NCBI GenBank assembly: GCA_944376655.1 | Contig: CALWDJ010000023.1 | Span: 1 to 34,674 of the forward strand | Origin: an uncultured Clostridia bacterium | Lineage (GTDB): Bacteria > Bacillota > Clostridia > Oscillospirales > Acutalibacteraceae | Length of the DNA stretch: 34,674 nt | Direction of reading: 5' to 3' | Shown here: one piece after another, positions 11,348 through 17,821 of the stretch | Layout of the letters: every line of letters starts with the position of its first letter | Numbering within the stretch: position 1 is the first letter of the stretch | Notes under the pieces: generated by a model | What the model was told of the DNA's origin: nothing | What the model saw: the letters and a program-made list of their open reading frames with translations, nothing else | The model's database searches: none | Made by a program: the position numbers and the translations under genes

Positions 11348-12388
11348 TTAATCCTCCGTTTCGGCGGACTTTGCCTCGGTGTAAAAGTTTTCAATAAGCA
11401 GCTTGTGAAGAGCGGATTCATCGGCGGTAAAGGTTTCGTAGCTGCCGTCGTTTCCGCTTTCGCCCTCTATGCCGAGCATATTAAAATCCGCGCCTATCGC
11501 TTCGGAAGCAAGAAACGCCGCGCTCGAGGCGGAAATGTCGGTCACGGTATTTGAAGCCAGCTTGTCATACATCTTGACCGGCAGACTTAAATCCTTAAGA
11601 CACGCCTTTTTCGCCTGCGCTATAAAAGAGGAAATAAACGCCTTCTGCCGTTCAAGGCGCGGAGCGTTGCTGTCGTTTCTGTGCCTTAAATAAGCCAGCG
11701 CGTCATCTCCGGTAAGGGTCAGCGATGCGCCCTTTTTGAAACGCGGGTCAGCCGCCGTCATATCCTCGGTCACGGTGACCGGAACGCCGCCCACTGAATC
11801 CACTATTTCCTCAAGCGAGTTCATAAAAATCGTGTAATATCCGCTTACGGGGATACCGTACAGGAAATCCGAAACCGCTTTTACGGTGTTTTCGGAACGC
11901 TTTTTATCGTCGCTCCCGTAGGAGTAGGCGAGACATATCTGCTGCTTTGAGGTGGCGAAAAAGTCGCCGTTTATATCGTAGGAATCCACATCGGTTACCG
12001 TATTGCGGGAGATCGCGGTAATACTTACAGTGTTGTTATCGGTATCGAGCGACACAAGGTAGAGCGCGTCGGCCTGCTGCTTTTCGTTTGCGCCGGGCGA
12101 CACCCTGTCGACCCCTATCAGCAGTATGTTTATAAGCCGGTCATTATAGTTGTACGCCTTGCCGTTATAATATGCGTCGGCGTTTTCGGGAATTTCCCCG
12201 CCGTCGGCGGGAAGTCCGGCGCTGTTGTTTTCAGCAGACTCGCGCAGCTTTGACTCGCCGGTTTTTATTATAATGAGAAACGCCGCGGTTATAAGCAGCA
12301 CAGCCGCCGCAGCAGCCGACAGAACCGTTATTATCCTTTTTTTTGCGGAGTGTTTTTGAGCTTTGTTTTCTTCCGTCGGTACGGACAT
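11348..12388 (-). CDS. LCP (LytR-CpsA-Psr) family glycopolymer transferase
   Basis: 346 aa: a short cytoplasmic basic tail, one membrane helix (18-41), then an extracellular LCP domain (about 86-290). Typical landmarks are L-L-I-G-V-D-R-V, A-D-A-L-Y-L-V-S-L-D, I-S-R-N-T, and A-Y-L-R-H-R-N-D-S-N-A-P-R-L-E-R-Q-K, which carries the Arg residues that bind the polyprenyl pyrophosphate. LCP enzymes attach teichoic acid or capsule-type polymers from undecaprenyl carriers to peptidoglycan. ATG at 12388 has AAGGAG eight bases away, with its own promoter at 12454-12481. Monocistronic. Confidence 0.93.
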   Translation of the reverse strand: MSVPTEENKAQKHSAKKRIITVLSAAAAAVLLITAAFLIIIKTGESKLRESAENNSAGLPADGGEIPENADAYYNGKAYNYNDRLINILLIGVDRVSPGANEKQQADALYLVSLDTDNNTVSITAISRNTVTDVDSYDINGDFFATSKQQICLAYSYGSDDKKRSENTVKAVSDFLYGIPVSGYYTIFMNSLEEIVDSVGGVPVTVTEDMTAADPRFKKGASLTLTGDDALAYLRHRNDSNAPRLERQKAFISSFIAQAKKACLKDLSLPVKMYDKLASNTVTDISASSAAFLASEAIGADFNMLGIEGESGNDGSYETFTADESALHKLLIENFYTEAKSAETED

Positions 12389-12453: not shown

Positions 12454-12481
12454 TTATTATGTGCTCCGTCGGCTTTGTCAA
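12454..12481 (-). promoter_or_regulatory. Promoter of the LCP gene
   Basis: Minus-strand TTGACA (12476-12481), 16-base spacer, TAATAA (12454-12459). The 5' leader then carries a small CGGCGC/GCGCCG hairpin (12422-12440). Divergent from the CNNM promoter 50 bases away. Confidence 0.6.
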
Positions 12482-12530: not shown

Positions 12531-12559
12531 TTGACTGTACGGCGGATATATTATATAAT
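12531..12559 (+). promoter_or_regulatory. Strong sigma-A promoter of the CNNM leader transcript
   Basis: TTGACT at 12531-12536, exactly 17 bases, TATAAT at 12554-12559. Transcription should start near 12566, giving an untranslated leader of about 185 nt before the transporter gene. Confidence 0.85.
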
Positions 12560-12585
12560 ATTGATTTGAGAAAGGAGATGGTTTT

Positions 12586-12702
12586 GTGGACCCGCTTCCG
12601 CGAAGTAGAAGCCTTACGGCTCTTCGCAAACCTTCGGAAACAGGTATGATTCTTCGGCGCGTCAAGTGCCGCTACCGGGTTTTTTCGGTTAACCTTAATT
12701 AG
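12586..12702 (+). CDS. Candidate 38-codon leader peptide upstream of the CNNM gene
   Basis: GTG start at 12586 with AAAGGAG (12571-12577) exactly eight bases upstream, as good a ribosome site as any gene here. The peptide begins M-D-P-L-P-R-S-R-S-L, continues T-A-L-R-K-P-S-E-T-G-M-I-L, is Arg/Lys-rich, and ends V-F-S-V-N-L-N at TAG 12700-12702, 48 bases before the transporter ATG. The acidic/proline opening followed by arginines recalls enterobacterial MgtL, where such a start destabilises ribosomes when Mg2+ is low. The frame also overlaps RNA hairpins at 12600-12627 and 12643-12676. Whether the peptide itself or only the RNA matters cannot be told here. Confidence 0.5.
   Translation: MDPLPRSRSLTALRKPSETGMILRRVKCRYRVFSVNLN
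12600..12685 (+). promoter_or_regulatory. Structured leader with attenuator-like hairpin before the CNNM gene
   Basis: First hairpin: GCGAAG and AGCC pair with GGCT and CTTCGC (12600-12627) around a TTAC loop, with a TAGA bulge. Second: GGTA (12643-12646) and CGGCGC (12655-12660) pair with GTGCCG (12666-12671) and TACC (12673-12676), followed by GGG and six T (12680-12685), like a weak intrinsic terminator. AAACC (12628-12632) could add pairs with GGTTT (12678-12682). It does not match the M-box or yybP-ykoY patterns as I know them. Folding was judged by eye only. Confidence 0.45.
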
Positions 12703-12750
12703 GACACGTAAAATCAGACAGAAACATACTTAAAAACCGGAGGAAAATAA

Positions 12751-14079
12751 ATGTCACAAATAATACAGCAGTTAATACTTCAGTTAGCGCTCATTCTGTT
12801 GAACGCCTTTTTCGCGGCGACCGAGATAGCGGTAATTTCACTTAATGAGAAAAAGGTTAAGGCGAGAGCGGAGGACGGCGACAGAAAAGCCGTCAAAATG
12901 CTCAAAATGATAGAGGAGCCGACAAGGTTTCTCTCAACCATTCAGATAGGAATAACATTGGCGGGCTTTCTCGCCTCGGCTTTCGCGGCGGATAATTTCG
13001 CGGAAAAGCTGTCCGGCTTTTTTGTAAGCACCTTTGATATTCCGGCGGGATATTCGGGCGCGGTCAACACCGTCGCGGTTATAGTTATCACGCTGATACT
13101 TTCGTTTTTTACCCTGGTGCTCGGCGAGCTGGTGCCCAAAAGAATCGCCATGAAGCACAAGGAACAGCTTGCCGAGGCGGTATGCGGAATCATAACCTTT
13201 CTGGCGGCTGCGCTCAGGCCGATTATCTGGCTTCTTACCGTTTCGACAAACGGAGTGCTGCGGCTATTCGGCATAGACCCGAACGAAAAGGAAGAGCCGG
13301 TCTCGGAAGAGGATATTGTGCTTATGCTTGACGCCGGAGCCGATGAGGGCAGTCTCAATCAGAATGACATAGAATATATAAAAAACGTTTTCAAGCTCGA
13401 CGGTATGACCGCCGAGGACGTTATGACGCCCCGCAAGTCGGTGGTGATGATACCCGAAGGCGCCGGAACCGACGAGATACTCCGTATAATAGAGGAGGAG
13501 GGCTATTCAAGGATTCCGGTTTATTCGGAATCGGCGGATAAAATCGTGGGAATACTCTACACGCGTGATTTTCTGCTCAAGCACTCACGTCCGGACTTCA
13601 CTCCGAAAGACGCGATGTTTCAGCCGACCTTTGTGCCCGAAACGGTGCATCTTGACGTGCTTTTCAAGGAGATGCAGCAGGAGCACAACCATATAGTAGT
13701 CGTGGTGGACGAATACGGCGTGACCGCCGGAATAGTCACTATGGAGGATATACTCGAGGAAATAGTGGGCGAGATATGGGACGAGCAGGACGAGGCGATA
13801 GAGGATTTCGCCGCTTTGGGCAACAGTACCTACCGTGTGCTGTGTTCGGCTTATATCGAGGACTTTTTTGAGTTCTTCTCGCTTGAGCCGGACGAGGACA
13901 CCGAGGCGACCACCGTCAACGGCTGGATAATCGAGCTTATAGGAAGCATACCCGAAAAGGGCTTCACTTTTGACTATCAGAATCTTACCATTACCGTGAC
14001 CGACGCCGACGACCTTATGGCGCACGAAATTACTGTAAAGGTGAATGACGGCGGTGCAGAGAAGGACGCCGAAGAATGA
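12751..14079 (+). CDS. CNNM/CorC-family transporter (DUF21 + CBS pair + CorC_HlyC)
   Basis: 442 aa, normal length. Residues 1-180 form the DUF21/CNNM membrane domain with A-T-E-I-A-V-I-S-L-N near the start and L-G-E-L-V-P-K-R at about 124-131. Two CBS domains follow (about 218-345; P-R-K-S-V-V-M-I and Y-S-R-I-P-V-Y, then D-E-Y-G-V-T-A-G-I-V-T-M-E-D). The last 90 residues are the CorC_HlyC domain. Older annotation calls these 'hemolysin'; bacterial members (CorC, MpfA) are linked to Mg2+ export and Mg2+ tolerance. It is read from a strong promoter through a structured leader, so expression is probably controlled after initiation. Confidence 0.93.
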   Translation: MSQIIQQLILQLALILLNAFFAATEIAVISLNEKKVKARAEDGDRKAVKMLKMIEEPTRFLSTIQIGITLAGFLASAFAADNFAEKLSGFFVSTFDIPAGYSGAVNTVAVIVITLILSFFTLVLGELVPKRIAMKHKEQLAEAVCGIITFLAAALRPIIWLLTVSTNGVLRLFGIDPNEKEEPVSEEDIVLMLDAGADEGSLNQNDIEYIKNVFKLDGMTAEDVMTPRKSVVMIPEGAGTDEILRIIEEEGYSRIPVYSESADKIVGILYTRDFLLKHSRPDFTPKDAMFQPTFVPETVHLDVLFKEMQQEHNHIVVVVDEYGVTAGIVTMEDILEEIVGEIWDEQDEAIEDFAALGNSTYRVLCSAYIEDFFEFFSLEPDEDTEATTVNGWIIELIGSIPEKGFTFDYQNLTITVTDADDLMAHEITVKVNDGGAEKDAEE

Positions 14080-14382: not shown

Positions 14383-15246
14383 ATGGACACAAAAACTCCG
14401 GAAAACAAAAAGAATTCACCGCGGCTTAAGGTATTGATAATAATACTTTCGGTTCTGCTCGTTTTAAGCGCGGGAGGACTTGCGGCAAAATATGTTTACG
14501 ATAATTTTTTCGCCTCTGACCGGGCGAGCGTCACCGTGCCCGACAATGTGATAGGCGACGACGGGGATTCCGCGCAGAGCGGCGAAAGCTCCGGGACGGA
14601 CGGCACCCAGAGCGGCGGAACCGAAGGAGAGAGCGTTCCGGCGGGCAGCGGGGACGTTTCGGGCTCCGAAAGCACCGGAACCGGTGGTTCGGAAACTGAG
14701 GACAGGCCCGCGGCGGAGCTGCTTGAGCTTTACAAGACAAAGCCGGAGGACAATGAAAAATTTGAAGTCGAAAATATGCTTCCGGGTGACACGGTCACGC
14801 GGTATTTCTGCGTGCGCGTAAATCACGGCGAGGCGCTCGACCTGTATTTTTCCGCCGACGTGACCGGACAGACAAAGCAGCTCGGCGACGTGCTTGAGAT
14901 AAAGGTCACCCGTGTGGGAGAGGATAAGGCGCTGTGCGACCTGCCTTTTTCCGAAGCGGACGGGAAAGAGTATAAAACGCGGGTAGCGGAAAACGGCAGC
15001 GGCGTAACCGATGTTTACTACCGTATAGATGTTTCGCTTGACACCTCGGTCGGCAACGAATACCAGGCGGCGGAGCTTACGGCGGATTTCAAATGGTTTG
15101 TAAAGGACGAAAGCGGGCTTGTGTCTCCGGGAACGGGTGATACAAGCATTACGGTGCTGTGGGCTTTGCTTGCGGCTTCATCGGCGGCGCTTATAATTCT
15201 GCTGCCGGTTTACCGGAAGGGGGACAAAAAACGTGAAAAAGCGTAG
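14383..15246 (+). CDS. Camelysin/TasA-like surface protein with sortase-type anchor
   Basis: 287 aa from the ATG at 14383 (AGGAAGG five bases upstream; the frame opens earlier but without a better site). A basic start and membrane segment (17-37) are followed by a low-complexity Gly/Ser/Thr/Asp linker (55-108), then a camelysin-type beta domain (125-245) with L-Y-F-S-A-D-V-T-G and Y-R-I-D-V-S-L-D-T-S-V-G-N-E-Y-Q. The end is S-P-G-T-G-D (248-253), a hydrophobic segment and a basic tail, the layout of a wall-anchor signal; Clostridia sortases are known to accept (S/P)PxTG. First gene of the fibre operon, so it may be the anchor or base of the fibre. No sortase gene is in the window. Confidence 0.75.
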   Translation: MDTKTPENKKNSPRLKVLIIILSVLLVLSAGGLAAKYVYDNFFASDRASVTVPDNVIGDDGDSAQSGESSGTDGTQSGGTEGESVPAGSGDVSGSESTGTGGSETEDRPAAELLELYKTKPEDNEKFEVENMLPGDTVTRYFCVRVNHGEALDLYFSADVTGQTKQLGDVLEIKVTRVGEDKALCDLPFSEADGKEYKTRVAENGSGVTDVYYRIDVSLDTSVGNEYQAAELTADFKWFVKDESGLVSPGTGDTSITVLWALLAASSAALIILLPVYRKGDKKREKA

Positions 15247-15781
15247 CAGTACCGAAAAAAAGGCTTACGGCAGTATCGCGGCGGTGATTATCCTTTTTAC
15301 AATGCTTGCGATAACTACATACGCGCTTATTTCAGCGATTGTCGGAGTAGACGGCAATATTTTTGAGACCGGCACGGTGGATATAGAGCTTAACGGCGGA
15401 AAGCCGGTTTTTGACGCCTCTGATATGAATATTGAGCCGGGTTATTCGGCAAAAAAGGATTTCACAGTAGAAAACAAGGGTACGGCGGATGTTTACTACC
15501 GCCTTTACCTTGAAAACGTGAGCGGCTCGCTGACAGACGCGCTTAACTTTGAAATATACGACGGCGACCGTCTCATATTCAGCGGAAGCGCCGGCGAATT
15601 CAGCCGTGAGACCCCCTGCATTAACAGCGAGGTCCTTAAGGCGGGCGGAACGGACACGCTTACGGCGGTTGTGAAAATGGAGGAATCCGCGGGAAACACA
15701 TATCAGGACGCCGGTATAACCTTTGATATAACAGCCGACGCGGTTCAGGCGAAAAACAATCAGGATATTTCATTTGAGTAG
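15233..15781 (+). CDS. TasA/camelysin-like fibre subunit, 182 aa
   Basis: GTG start at 15233 behind GGAAGGGGG, overlapping the end of the preceding gene by 14 bases. After a basic start and a membrane segment (about 13-36) the mature part reads G-N-I-F-E-T-G-T-V-D-I-E-L, the TasA/camelysin opening, followed by I-E-P-G-Y-S-A-K-K-D-F-T-V-E-N-K-G and E-E-S-A-G-N-T-Y-Q, typical of the family. It lacks the F-A-W-F signal of the next subunits. Probably a minor or initiating subunit; this is inference from order in the operon. Confidence 0.75.
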   Translation: MKKRSSTEKKAYGSIAAVIILFTMLAITTYALISAIVGVDGNIFETGTVDIELNGGKPVFDASDMNIEPGYSAKKDFTVENKGTADVYYRLYLENVSGSLTDALNFEIYDGDRLIFSGSAGEFSRETPCINSEVLKAGGTDTLTAVVKMEESAGNTYQDAGITFDITADAVQAKNNQDISFE

Positions 15782-15838: not shown

Positions 15839-17821
15839 ATGAAAAGCACAAAGAAAAGCCTTATCGCAAGCGGAATTTCGCTGGCGGTAAGCATGGCGCT
15901 GATGGCAGGCTCCACCTTCGCGTGGTTTACCGACAGCGTGACAAACAAGGGCAACAAAATTCAGGCAGGCAATCTTGCGGTTGAGCTCTGGAACGGAAAC
16001 ACGGAAATAACCGACAGCAGCGGACCGGTATTCAATTATGATGAATGGGAGCCCGGATATTCTACCGGAGCTGATTTATGGGTAAGGAACGCGGGCACGC
16101 TCGCGCTTAAATACGAGCTGGAATTTCAGAATATCCAGACCTCGGGCGGCATTGAAAACGTTATTGACGTAACGGTAAACGGCGAAGCCGTCGGCACGCT
16201 CGCCGATTACATCGGCGGAAAGAATATTGCCGCCGGCGTTCTTAAGACCGGAGAGTCTGGAAATCACAGCAATATTGTGCTTAAAATGCGCGAATCGGCA
16301 GGCAATGAATATCAGGAAGCCTACGCGACCTTCGATATACTCCTTAAAGCGACACAGTACACCTTTGAGGCGGACGGCTTCGGCGATACGCTGTACGACG
16401 GTGAGGCGGCATACGATGACGGCGGATATTCGATAGCGCCGGTCACCGTGACAGAAGAGGTTGTCAGCGGCGCCGATACGGTCTTAAAGGATCAGGGAGT
16501 TACCGTGACGGTTCCTGCCGACTCGACGGCGGAGGACACGGTCACGCTGACAATAGAGGACGGCGTCACACCCGACTCAGTTCAGGCACCGTCGGGAAGC
16601 ACGGTCGTAACGTATGAGATAAATCTTGTGAACGGCAGCGGCGAAGCCGTTTCACTCACGGAACCGGCGGTAATATCGCTTTTTGTCGGCAAAGGGCTCG
16701 CGAATGTGATTCTTTACCATAATTCACAGCCGGTAACCGGTGCTGTGTACGATATGGAAACCGGAATAATAACCTTTGAGACAGACAGCTTTTCGCCCTT
16801 CACCGTCGTGTATGACGGAAAGGCGGTGGCCTTTGTGAACGGAAACGCCTACGCGTCCTTTTCCGAGGCGCTGATCGCAGCCAACAACGGAGGAACGGTT
16901 GAGCTGCTGTCCGCTCCGGATACGGGTTATTCGTTCGGCTATACCGAAGCATGGGTCAATGAGGGCGTTTCTTCAAAAAATCCGAACAGCTACGGAAAGA
17001 ATGTTTATGCCTATACGCTCAATAATGTCACCGTGACTTCCGCGGGCGGGGAAAGAGCGGTTATTAAAGGTATTGATATGCTTCCCGCCAAGGTCACGGA
17101 AACCGACCCGCAGGACAGCTCGCTTGACAGTTATTACACAAAGCTGTCGGTGGACGGGCTTGTGTTCAGAAACATAGACTTCACGGACGCGGTGAAAATC
17201 GGTTCTACAATAACGGGGCTCTCGGTTTTGAAGAATATTTCTTTTGAAAACTGCACTTTCGATATGACCGAATCGGACGAGACTTATAAAGACGCGCTGC
17301 TTATAAAGGCTCCGTCAGGCCTTCAGGACGGCGACGTCTATGTGTCCGACGGAATAACCGTTAAAAACTGCGAATTTTTGAACTGCCGCCGCAGCATAAG
17401 TCTTGACAAGGCCAAAAACACAAATATTTCCGGAAATAATTTCTCGGAATGCACTTACGGTCTTTACGGCTTCAACATTTTAGGCAATTTCGTTTTCAAC
17501 GGAAACGTGCTTTCAAACGGAGAGGGCGCGATTCGGATAAATACCGTTTCAAACAATTACGCCGCACATGACTATTCGTCGGATATTACGGTCACCGGAA
17601 ATATTATGACCGGAATGACCCAGAGAAACGGATATTTCTGCTACACCGCCTATGATAACGGAAAGCAAAGCGGCAAAACGGAATACACCGTAAGCGACAA
17701 TTACTGGGGCGCGGCTGAAGGCGTGACAGCGGTAAAAGGCTTCAGGATTAAGACCACTTATTCCCCCAGCGTCGCGCAGACCATTGAGGATACCGCTCCG
17801 AGAACCTCTCCAGGGCAGTAA
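15839..17821 (+). CDS. TasA-like subunit with C-terminal beta-helix domain, 660 aa
   Basis: A SipW-type signal (residues 3-28, ending G-S-T-F-A-W-F-T-D) leads into a TasA/camelysin domain (29-175; E-P-G-Y-S-T-G-A-D-L-W-V-R-N-A-G and E-S-A-G-N-E-Y-Q). Residues 195-325 form a second beta-rich domain with V-T-V-P-A-D-S-T-A-E-D-T-V-T-L-T. Residues 335-645 are a right-handed parallel beta-helix, shown by short N-rich turns such as I-S-F-E-N-C-T-F and I-S-G-N-N-F-S-E-C-T-Y. TasA subunits assemble into extracellular fibres; here the fibre would display a large beta-helix, a fold often binding or processing glycans. GGAGG lies about seven bases before the ATG. Confidence 0.85.
   Translation: MKSTKKSLIASGISLAVSMALMAGSTFAWFTDSVTNKGNKIQAGNLAVELWNGNTEITDSSGPVFNYDEWEPGYSTGADLWVRNAGTLALKYELEFQNIQTSGGIENVIDVTVNGEAVGTLADYIGGKNIAAGVLKTGESGNHSNIVLKMRESAGNEYQEAYATFDILLKATQYTFEADGFGDTLYDGEAAYDDGGYSIAPVTVTEEVVSGADTVLKDQGVTVTVPADSTAEDTVTLTIEDGVTPDSVQAPSGSTVVTYEINLVNGSGEAVSLTEPAVISLFVGKGLANVILYHNSQPVTGAVYDMETGIITFETDSFSPFTVVYDGKAVAFVNGNAYASFSEALIAANNGGTVELLSAPDTGYSFGYTEAWVNEGVSSKNPNSYGKNVYAYTLNNVTVTSAGGERAVIKGIDMLPAKVTETDPQDSSLDSYYTKLSVDGLVFRNIDFTDAVKIGSTITGLSVLKNISFENCTFDMTESDETYKDALLIKAPSGLQDGDVYVSDGITVKNCEFLNCRRSISLDKAKNTNISGNNFSECTYGLYGFNILGNFVFNGNVLSNGEGAIRINTVSNNYAAHDYSSDITVTGNIMTGMTQRNGYFCYTAYDNGKQSGKTEYTVSDNYWGAAEGVTAVKGFRIKTTYSPSVAQTIEDTAPRTSPGQ

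Follow-up and report, generated by a model that had tools for sequence, protein, structure and literature searches.

The 34,674-nucleotide stretch of DNA from an uncultured Clostridia bacterium that we analyzed (hereafter, the window) carries, in front of a gene for a CNNM/CorC transporter, a short leader open reading frame (ORF) that, judging from comparison across related genomes, is almost certainly part of a real, conserved, translated-looking attenuator. The beginning of the encoded peptide is conserved, the arms of a helix that joins the ORF to the ribosome-site region of the transporter gene coevolve in swap tests, this helix opens in computed folds as a ribosome passes, and similar leaders are associated with other genes for Mg2+ transport. 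It seems likely that the leader senses Mg2+ through its peptide and, with somewhat less assurance, we favor as the full mechanism a translation-abort Mg2+ sensor akin to enterobacterial MgtL, with an inverted output.

All elements of this leader lie on the plus strand. The promoter, TTGACT-17-TATAAT (12531–12559), matches 11 of the 12 consensus bases, so the initial annotation, which had called it perfect, was right about its presence and slightly too strong in the epithet. The ribosome site AAGGAG (12572–12577) stands 8 nt upstream of the GTG start of an open, 38-codon ORF (12586–12702), as had been annotated, which translates to MDPLPRSRSLTALRKPSETGMILRRVKCRYRVFSVNLN followed by a stop codon; the opening MDPLPRSR motif (12586–12609) is the presumed ribosome-destabilizing segment. 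The transporter gene (12751–14079) begins after a gap of 48 nt, and its 442-aa product combines CNNM, CBS and CorC_HlyC domains (Pfam PF01595, E 5.7e-50; PF00571; PF03471), which bears out the earlier assignment. Of 200 dinucleotide shuffles, 199 fold less stably than the leader itself (z = -2.8). A cmscan search of the window leader against Rfam gave no family at the gathering threshold and, at E values up to 10, a sole match to a human lncRNA model, far below the cut-off; the M-box (RF00380), already doubted in the initial annotation, was rejected for lack of a covariance-model match at both gathering and relaxed thresholds. Among the neighbors of this locus are a divergent LytR-CpsA-Psr gene (11348–12388, minus strand) with a good promoter of its own, TTGACA-17-AATAAT at 12481–12453, and two genes (15233–15781 and 15839–17821) for proteins with camelysin-like N-terminal parts (Peptidase_M73), the second of which also has weak matches to beta-helix families.

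When the DNA of 60 genomes, including that of the window, was searched, the most conserved block consisted of the ribosome site, the start codon and the first codons of the leader. Within the genus, 61 genomes were searched at the protein level and 30 CNNM loci were taken; a Shine-Dalgarno (SD) sequence followed by GTG and an MDPL[PG]R[SC] ORF of 35–38 codons is present in the window and in all 10 close orthologues found (CNNM proteins 66–96% identical), and the retention of the reading frame in all of them shows that the ORF is there beyond chance; at the more distant CNNM genes of this sample (L026 and L035–L044), no such separate leader was seen. With three further leaders added (L053, L165 and L166; L054 was excluded as a duplicate of the L017 leader), the set comprises 14 sequences, all of which share residues 2, 3, 4 and 6, residue 5 being Pro in 12 and Gly in two (L018 and L019). 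Codon 2 alternates between GAC and GAT, codon 4 between CTT, CTA and CTG, and codon 5 between CCG, CCT and CCC, with GGG in two; the variation is thus confined to the wobble base at codons 2 and 4 and mostly so at codon 5, the pattern of an acidic/proline N-terminus under selection at the peptide level. Because these residues are fixed despite the wobble changes, and the peptide diverges from codon 9 onward, it is the start of the leader peptide that is selected. Codon 3 is CCG and codon 6 is CGA in all 14 leaders, wobble base included, and the fixed wobble of CGA is more than a pure peptide sensor needs. This conservation beyond the peptide (12601–12608 and the family) perhaps reflects slow decoding or RNA pairing; a CGA-TGT pair also recurs in the leaders L081, L089 and L108. 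MDPLPRSR holds a single acidic residue (Asp2), fewer than the two or more of the MgtL type (EPDP), and its longer form MDPLPRSRSLT falls below the threshold of four Asp/Glu/Pro residues that we used in the survey described below.

The leader ORF is predicted to pair with the start region of the gene that it precedes. In all 12 MDPL leaders that were folded, the SD region of the CNNM gene pairs with nucleotides 45–53 of the ORF, the pairing being partial in L022 and L023, with two to three SD bases paired. In the window, an anti-SD segment CCTTCGG (12631–12637) pairs with CCGGAGG (12737–12743) with a probability of about 1, and the helix is extended by AGGTATG (12642–12648) with CATACTT (12725–12731); upstream of it, the minimum-energy fold has a hairpin, P1, inside the ORF (12600–12605 with 12622–12627; overall 12600–12627). 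The arms of the helix coevolve: across the 12 leaders, cognate arms reach a mean of -23.4 kcal/mol versus -13.9 kcal/mol for non-cognate ones; for nine representatives, the true assignment of arms outranks every alternative among the 362,880 permutations; and shuffled arms paired as well in 0 of 300 trials for 11 of the 12 leaders, L023 being matched by 11 of 300. The claim of covariation rests on this swap test, a per-position pair table drawn from individual minimum-energy folds being circular. In L165, where the ORF runs into the CNNM start, the peptide is kept and the helix is reduced to four pairs.

Such a strong coevolving structure would also be expected if the helix were a riboswitch or a thermosensor and the ORF incidental, but we regard regulation by RNA alone as extremely improbable: otherwise diverging sequences retain the frame, size and start codon of the ORF together with residues 2, 3, 4 and 6, a related N-terminus (MDDFPRCS, L089) sits on a different device, namely, a strong hairpin over the stop codon, leader ORFs of CNNM genes are enriched in Asp, Glu and Pro, and Rfam has no match. 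The initial annotation had asked whether the peptide or only the RNA would prove conserved upstream of other CNNM genes; in the MDPL family both are, the frame and residues being kept along with the coevolving arms.

Moving a ribosome-sized block along the ORF in constrained folding gives the computed accessibility of the SD at each position of the ribosome, evaluated for 10 of 13 leaders (in L020, L021 and L025, the script recognized no SD). With the ribosome at codons 2–7, SD access did not rise above the ribosome-free level in any of the 10; with the ribosome at codons 12–18, it reached at least 0.73 in eight, the exceptions being L023, which did not respond, and L024, which reached just 0.40. 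Ribosome-free access is already 0.40–0.58 in L022, L023 and L166. An anti-SD in the leader ORF that covaries with its target, and a ribosome that alters SD access, are the marks of a translational attenuator, and both are found here as far as the computed folds go. The sign that had been proposed earlier, namely, that the gene is on when the ribosome passes, agrees with this RNA anatomy, in which passage of the ribosome opens the SD region.

The initial annotation placed the switch elsewhere, in a hairpin within the ORF (GGTA...TACC, 12643–12676) followed by six T (12680–12685) that would end transcription unless a ribosome ran over it. The hairpin and the T-run are present in the sequence (12643–12685), at most as a possible weak terminator that is inconsistently conserved in the family; a related terminator was called in the sister leader L016 (-12.4 kcal/mol), L021 has a less stable one (-6.7), and T-runs occur at the same part of the ORF in several leaders. 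Terminator scans, however, did not call the hairpin in the window, in 5 of the 12 MDPL leaders no terminator-like hairpin is as stable as -6 kcal/mol, and just two leaders have one that reaches -10, as against SD pairing in 12 of 12. We therefore rejected an intrinsic terminator as the main device of the MDPL leaders, where a conserved hairpin with a U-tract is not found, and consider transcription attenuation a distinctly improbable account of the window leader; the conserved switch is, on the folding evidence, probably the pairing of the ORF with the CNNM ribosome-site region, to which the hairpin could add a second layer of control.

We propose translational attenuation in which the ribosome reads the leader. 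When the ORF is empty, or its ribosome is lost within the first few codons, codons 16–21 would pair with the CNNM ribosome-site region, and little transporter would be translated; a ribosome that proceeds beyond MDPLPRSR to about codons 12–18 would pull the helix apart, free the site and allow CNNM to be made. The sensor would be the Asp/Pro start of the peptide, on which the ribosome falls off at low Mg2+ by intrinsic destabilization, as on MgtL, so that the presumed Mg2+ exporter would be made only when Mg2+ suffices, with the sign inverted relative to MgtL. That the signal is Mg2+, that the ribosome aborts and does not stall, the sign of the response and export by this CNNM are our inference. 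Whether CNNM proteins themselves export Mg2+ is left open in the available part of PMC8242095 and, in that of PMC8726484, which concerns animal cells, cation entry is stimulated.

Leaders of related character precede many other CNNM genes. The second CNNM group of the genus has MDSSDSSDDNGDTNN leaders at seven of seven loci (L028–L034), L028 with a relative of MDSSDSSDDNGDTNN, and these leaders have a 36-nt hairpin and five T inside the ORF, the hairpin spanning the ORF stop in L028. A first survey of CNNM genes in named genomes began with 80 loci, of which four without a start were dropped; in 66 of the remaining 76, free DNA extends for 100 nt or more upstream. Under a rule that calls for an SD-preceded short ORF with at least four Asp, Glu or Pro in residues 2–12, leaders were found at 26 of these 66 CNNM genes compared with 2 of 166 other genes at the same loci (p 2e-14), with thresholds set after the first leaders had been seen, related sequences, start sites chosen by script and at least four of the 26 leaders doubtful (L056, L067, L073 and L105, the last an in-frame extension of its CNNM). 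Such a leader is combined with a terminator at 15 of the 66 CNNM genes and at none of the 166 others. Examples are MDADDSDPSE (uncultured Oscillibacter, L099), MDDADPDGETN (Eisenbergiella porci, L080) and MDDGPGS (uncultured spirochaetes, L077 and L088); unlike MDPLPRSR, many other CNNM leaders have at least two acidic residues near the start. The SD rule misses some leaders: MDDFPRCS of L089 was noticed by eye alone, as were MDDGGPSPRF (L168) and MTDSDLPRST (L170), both CNNM leaders with terminator-like hairpins.

The outputs associated with these leaders seem to differ. Across three samples, all 27 strong terminators (dG <= -14) that accompany Asp/Glu/Pro-rich leaders start within the ORF or at most 15 nt from its stop, although one of them (L067) looks like chance, and the end of the ORF is where a finishing ribosome would sit. 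The ORF-located terminator envisaged in the initial annotation thus does occur in other CNNM leader families, even though it is not the main device of the MDPL leaders. In the spirochaete leaders L077, L088, L064 and L085, the SD pairs with the last codons of the ORF (..KLLL before the stop in three), and the site opens in computed folds as the ribosome nears the ORF end. At L181, L192 and L211, MDDPYPA leader ORFs overlap the CNNM start out of frame, which suggests translational coupling as another output. Rfam searches over 20 other CNNM loci returned only malK-I, T-box and tRNA matches, none of them over a leader, and the pattern GGAGGN{5,13}ATGGAYNNNGVYGAYWSY matched twice in 293 genomes versus four times in the reversed control.

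The same motif occurs in CNNM proteins themselves, with own N-termini such as MDDPGP, MDPDP and MQPDPDPDP and also MDPLWGQ. In a second CNNM sample (69 of 112 further matches from the same bacterial family, as 29 + 40 loci), 41 proteins have an Asp/Glu/Pro cluster at their own N-terminus, eight have a leader, none has both and 20 have neither; the enrichment of leaders is weaker here (8 of 69 versus 2 of 166, p 0.001), with upstream DNA untrimmed in this sample and trimmed to free DNA for the 166 neighbors. In both samples combined (n = 145), both features occur at three loci, the protein's own motif only at 56, a leader only at 35 and neither at 51 (Fisher p 4e-7, a value that ignores relatedness), by a loose measure of the own N-terminus, which lets through 22 of 251 controls as well as 15 of 30 mgtE genes. 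It looks, from these counts, as if the Asp/Pro motif were meant to appear once, in the protein or in the leader. A second, tandem pair of CNNM genes lies in the window genome (G000:C11:3780-6006) and in relatives (L008, L010 and L013); in the relatives that were read, the first gene of the pair starts with GTG and MDDSPAGS, in nearly the AGGAGATGGTTTTGTGGAC context of the window leader.

The protein version of the motif could also be explained by membrane topology, and the many CNNM proteins that start with MDDPGP, MDPDP or MDPLWGQ, together with the 56 of 145 loci with an own motif only, are what would be expected if the leader were a relic of a CNNM N-terminus devoid of a regulatory role. 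Such an origin is very improbable given that the same motif is present in leaders of mgtE and corA, that leader and own motif exclude one another and that the leader ORFs go together with SD pairing or a terminator.

The link to Mg2+ transport genes, which was part of the initial annotation, extends beyond CNNM. We sampled 50 of the 53 mgtE matches listed in the same class and, for corA and trkH, took 30 loci each and examined 28 of each. Leaders with D..PLP (MDSDPLP, MDSGPLP, MVDPGPLP and others), which resemble E. coli MgtL, precede 8 of the 50 mgtE genes, all among the first 30; the broader D..P[LYGFI]P form is found at 11 of 145 CNNM genes (6/76 + 5/69) and 2 of 28 corA genes (MDTDPYP and MSADPYP), compared with 0 of 28 trkH and 0 of 166 neighboring genes, the upstream DNA again being untrimmed for the transporters and trimmed for the neighbors. 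The looser Asp/Glu/Pro rule gives 10 of 30 for mgtE, 2 of 28 for corA and 2 of 28 for trkH, and both trkH hits resemble the tail of a coding gene that lies upstream. When 293 genomes were searched openly for an SD followed by MDxxPLP, 15 matches appeared, versus three in the reversed control; nine of the 15 are short ORFs 106–125 nt upstream of Pfam-confirmed mgtE genes (four of these nine loci had already been counted), four are at the start of a long gene or within one, and the remaining two are other ORFs. In the window genome, this pattern has no match; its own mgtE (L161, G000:C1) has neither a D/P leader nor an M-box, and a possible long hairpin, ACCCGTC...GGCGGG with seven T, at the end of its leader may represent another regulatory RNA.

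M-boxes are present at 8 of the 50 mgtE loci. We had supposed that an M-box and a D..PLP leader stand in for each other, but this was wrong: at four loci (L145, L146, L147 and L155), a D..PLP ORF follows an M-box by 64–98 nt, ahead of mgtE, so that two Mg2+ devices stand in tandem. Two of the other M-box loci have ..DIKPPNLC ORFs (L157 and L241), and two (L240 and L243) have no such ORF. In L157 and L241, the codons for KPPN (AAACCTCCTAAT) resemble an anti-SD directed at mgtE; in a fold test of L157, the mgtE site did not respond to the ribosome.

These associations bear on another alternative, in which the switch is the same and the signal is different: the ribosome would pause at the Pro or Arg (CGA) codons when Pro/Arg charging, EF-P or an ABC-F factor falls short, and what the leader would report is translation capacity rather than Mg2+. 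The invariance of CCG at codon 3 and CGA at codon 6 in all 14 leaders speaks for this possibility, as does the relief by EttA of pausing at acidic N-termini, that of MgtL included, according to the available part of PMC11282234. We nonetheless find it unlikely because D..PxP leaders stand before three unrelated families of Mg2+ transporters and not before trkH or neighboring genes, because D..PLP leaders stand after M-boxes and because Pro-Leu-Pro is absent from many of the Asp-rich leaders at other CNNM genes. A peptide that senses Mg2+ fits this distribution of D..P leaders before CNNM, mgtE and corA.

The folds of the mgtE leaders are partly those of an importer under the opposite control. 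By eye, the leader start region pairs with a far part of the ORF in 11 of 12, and a ribosome at codons 2–7 raises access to the mgtE site by at least 0.07 in 10 of 12 mgtE leaders but in none of 10 CNNM leaders, which fits a scheme in which importers are turned on by early abortion and exporters by passage. Against such opposite logic, a ribosome near the ORF end opens the site in most mgtE leaders, too, the L152 leader behaves the opposite way and L157 is unresponsive; the swap test on the leader-start helix of eight mgtE leaders is weak, with 408 of 40,320 permutations as good.

A broader reading, in which Clostridia and spirochaetes share a general Asp/Pro nascent-peptide sensor of Mg2+ that is portable between genes, is lowered by these mgtE results to a tentative one, which falls somewhat short of probable. 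The motif would reside in a leader ORF or in the transporter's own N-terminus; the outputs would be interchangeable, namely, a terminator in the ORF, SD pairing in the middle or at the end of the ORF, or an overlapping ORF; and the logic would be opposite for exporters, on by ribosome passage, and for importers such as MgtE, on by early abortion. If CNNM and MgtE/CorA genes throughout Clostridia obey this principle, sensing of Mg2+ by the ribosome would be widespread, its sign would depend solely on the RNA around the peptide, and replacing Asp2 or Pro would be expected to lock exporters on but importers off. The principle would help to explain, in addition, the high-Mg2+ response of CorC-type genes, which is unclear according to the available part of a 2025 Salmonella paper (PMC12421838).

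Among the matches listed in literature searches, covering titles and abstract openings with few subscription papers, no such CNNM or mgtE leaders in Clostridia came up, and comparison is best made with the known systems. In translational attenuators of the erm type, translation of a leader ORF frees a buried ribosome site, and it is drug-induced stalling near the start of the ORF that does so; in the window leader, by contrast, a ribosome at the start leaves the site unopened in the computed folds. The M-box is likewise a Mg2+-responsive leader of Mg2+ transport genes but is an RNA aptamer, with no match in the window; in Mycobacterium tuberculosis, an M-box controls a small ORF, as stated in the available part of PMC12810186.

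Sensing of Mg2+ by a destabilizing nascent peptide is known, from what is available of the respective papers, in enterobacteria, for importers or in the N-terminus of CorC (PMC11282234, PMC8092293, PMC12421838), and the precedents for our reading are MgtL (PMC11282234), MgtQ (PMC8092293) and the induction of corC by high Mg2+ (PMC12421838). The resemblance to MgtL of E. coli and Salmonella mgtA, on which the initial annotation had drawn, holds: both are short ORFs with an acidic/proline start that precede a Mg2+ transporter gene within its leader, PLPR is common to MgtL (read from NC_000913.3) and MDPLPR, the Asp/Pro start is conserved and, by analogy, the ribosome is the proposed sensor in the window leader as well. 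In the available part of PMC11282234, MgtL has the destabilizing motif EPDP and controls an importer via a Rho-dependent terminator, such that early abortion switches the gene on. The window gene, in contrast, presumably encodes an exporter, its output device is a ribosome site sequestered by pairing, and abortion would be expected to leave the gene off; in place of abortion turning the gene on via Rho, the anatomy found in the window is that of an SD region opened by passage.

CorC (YbeX) is similar in that a destabilizing sequence, presumed for the window leader, is tied to a protein of the CorC family. The available part of PMC12421838 has corC and mgpA of Salmonella induced by high Mg2+ and the N-terminus of E. 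coli CorC destabilizing ribosomes. E. coli YoaL, a possible regulator according to the same text, starts with MDRHRRHFSI, which is not Asp/Pro-rich, and was set aside. In CorC, the motif is in the protein itself, the layout of many surveyed CNNM proteins, whereas at the window gene it lies in a leader ORF of its own. MgtQ, between mgtC and mgtB of Salmonella, regulates a Mg2+ transporter gene by the accessibility of its ribosome site, through Asp2 and Glu5, which destabilize the ribosome (PMC8092293, available part); according to that source, it has only eight codons, lies between two genes, serves an importer and releases the site by abortion, whereas in the window leader passage would release it. 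It is the clostridial mgtE leaders that look closer to MgtQ in their logic.
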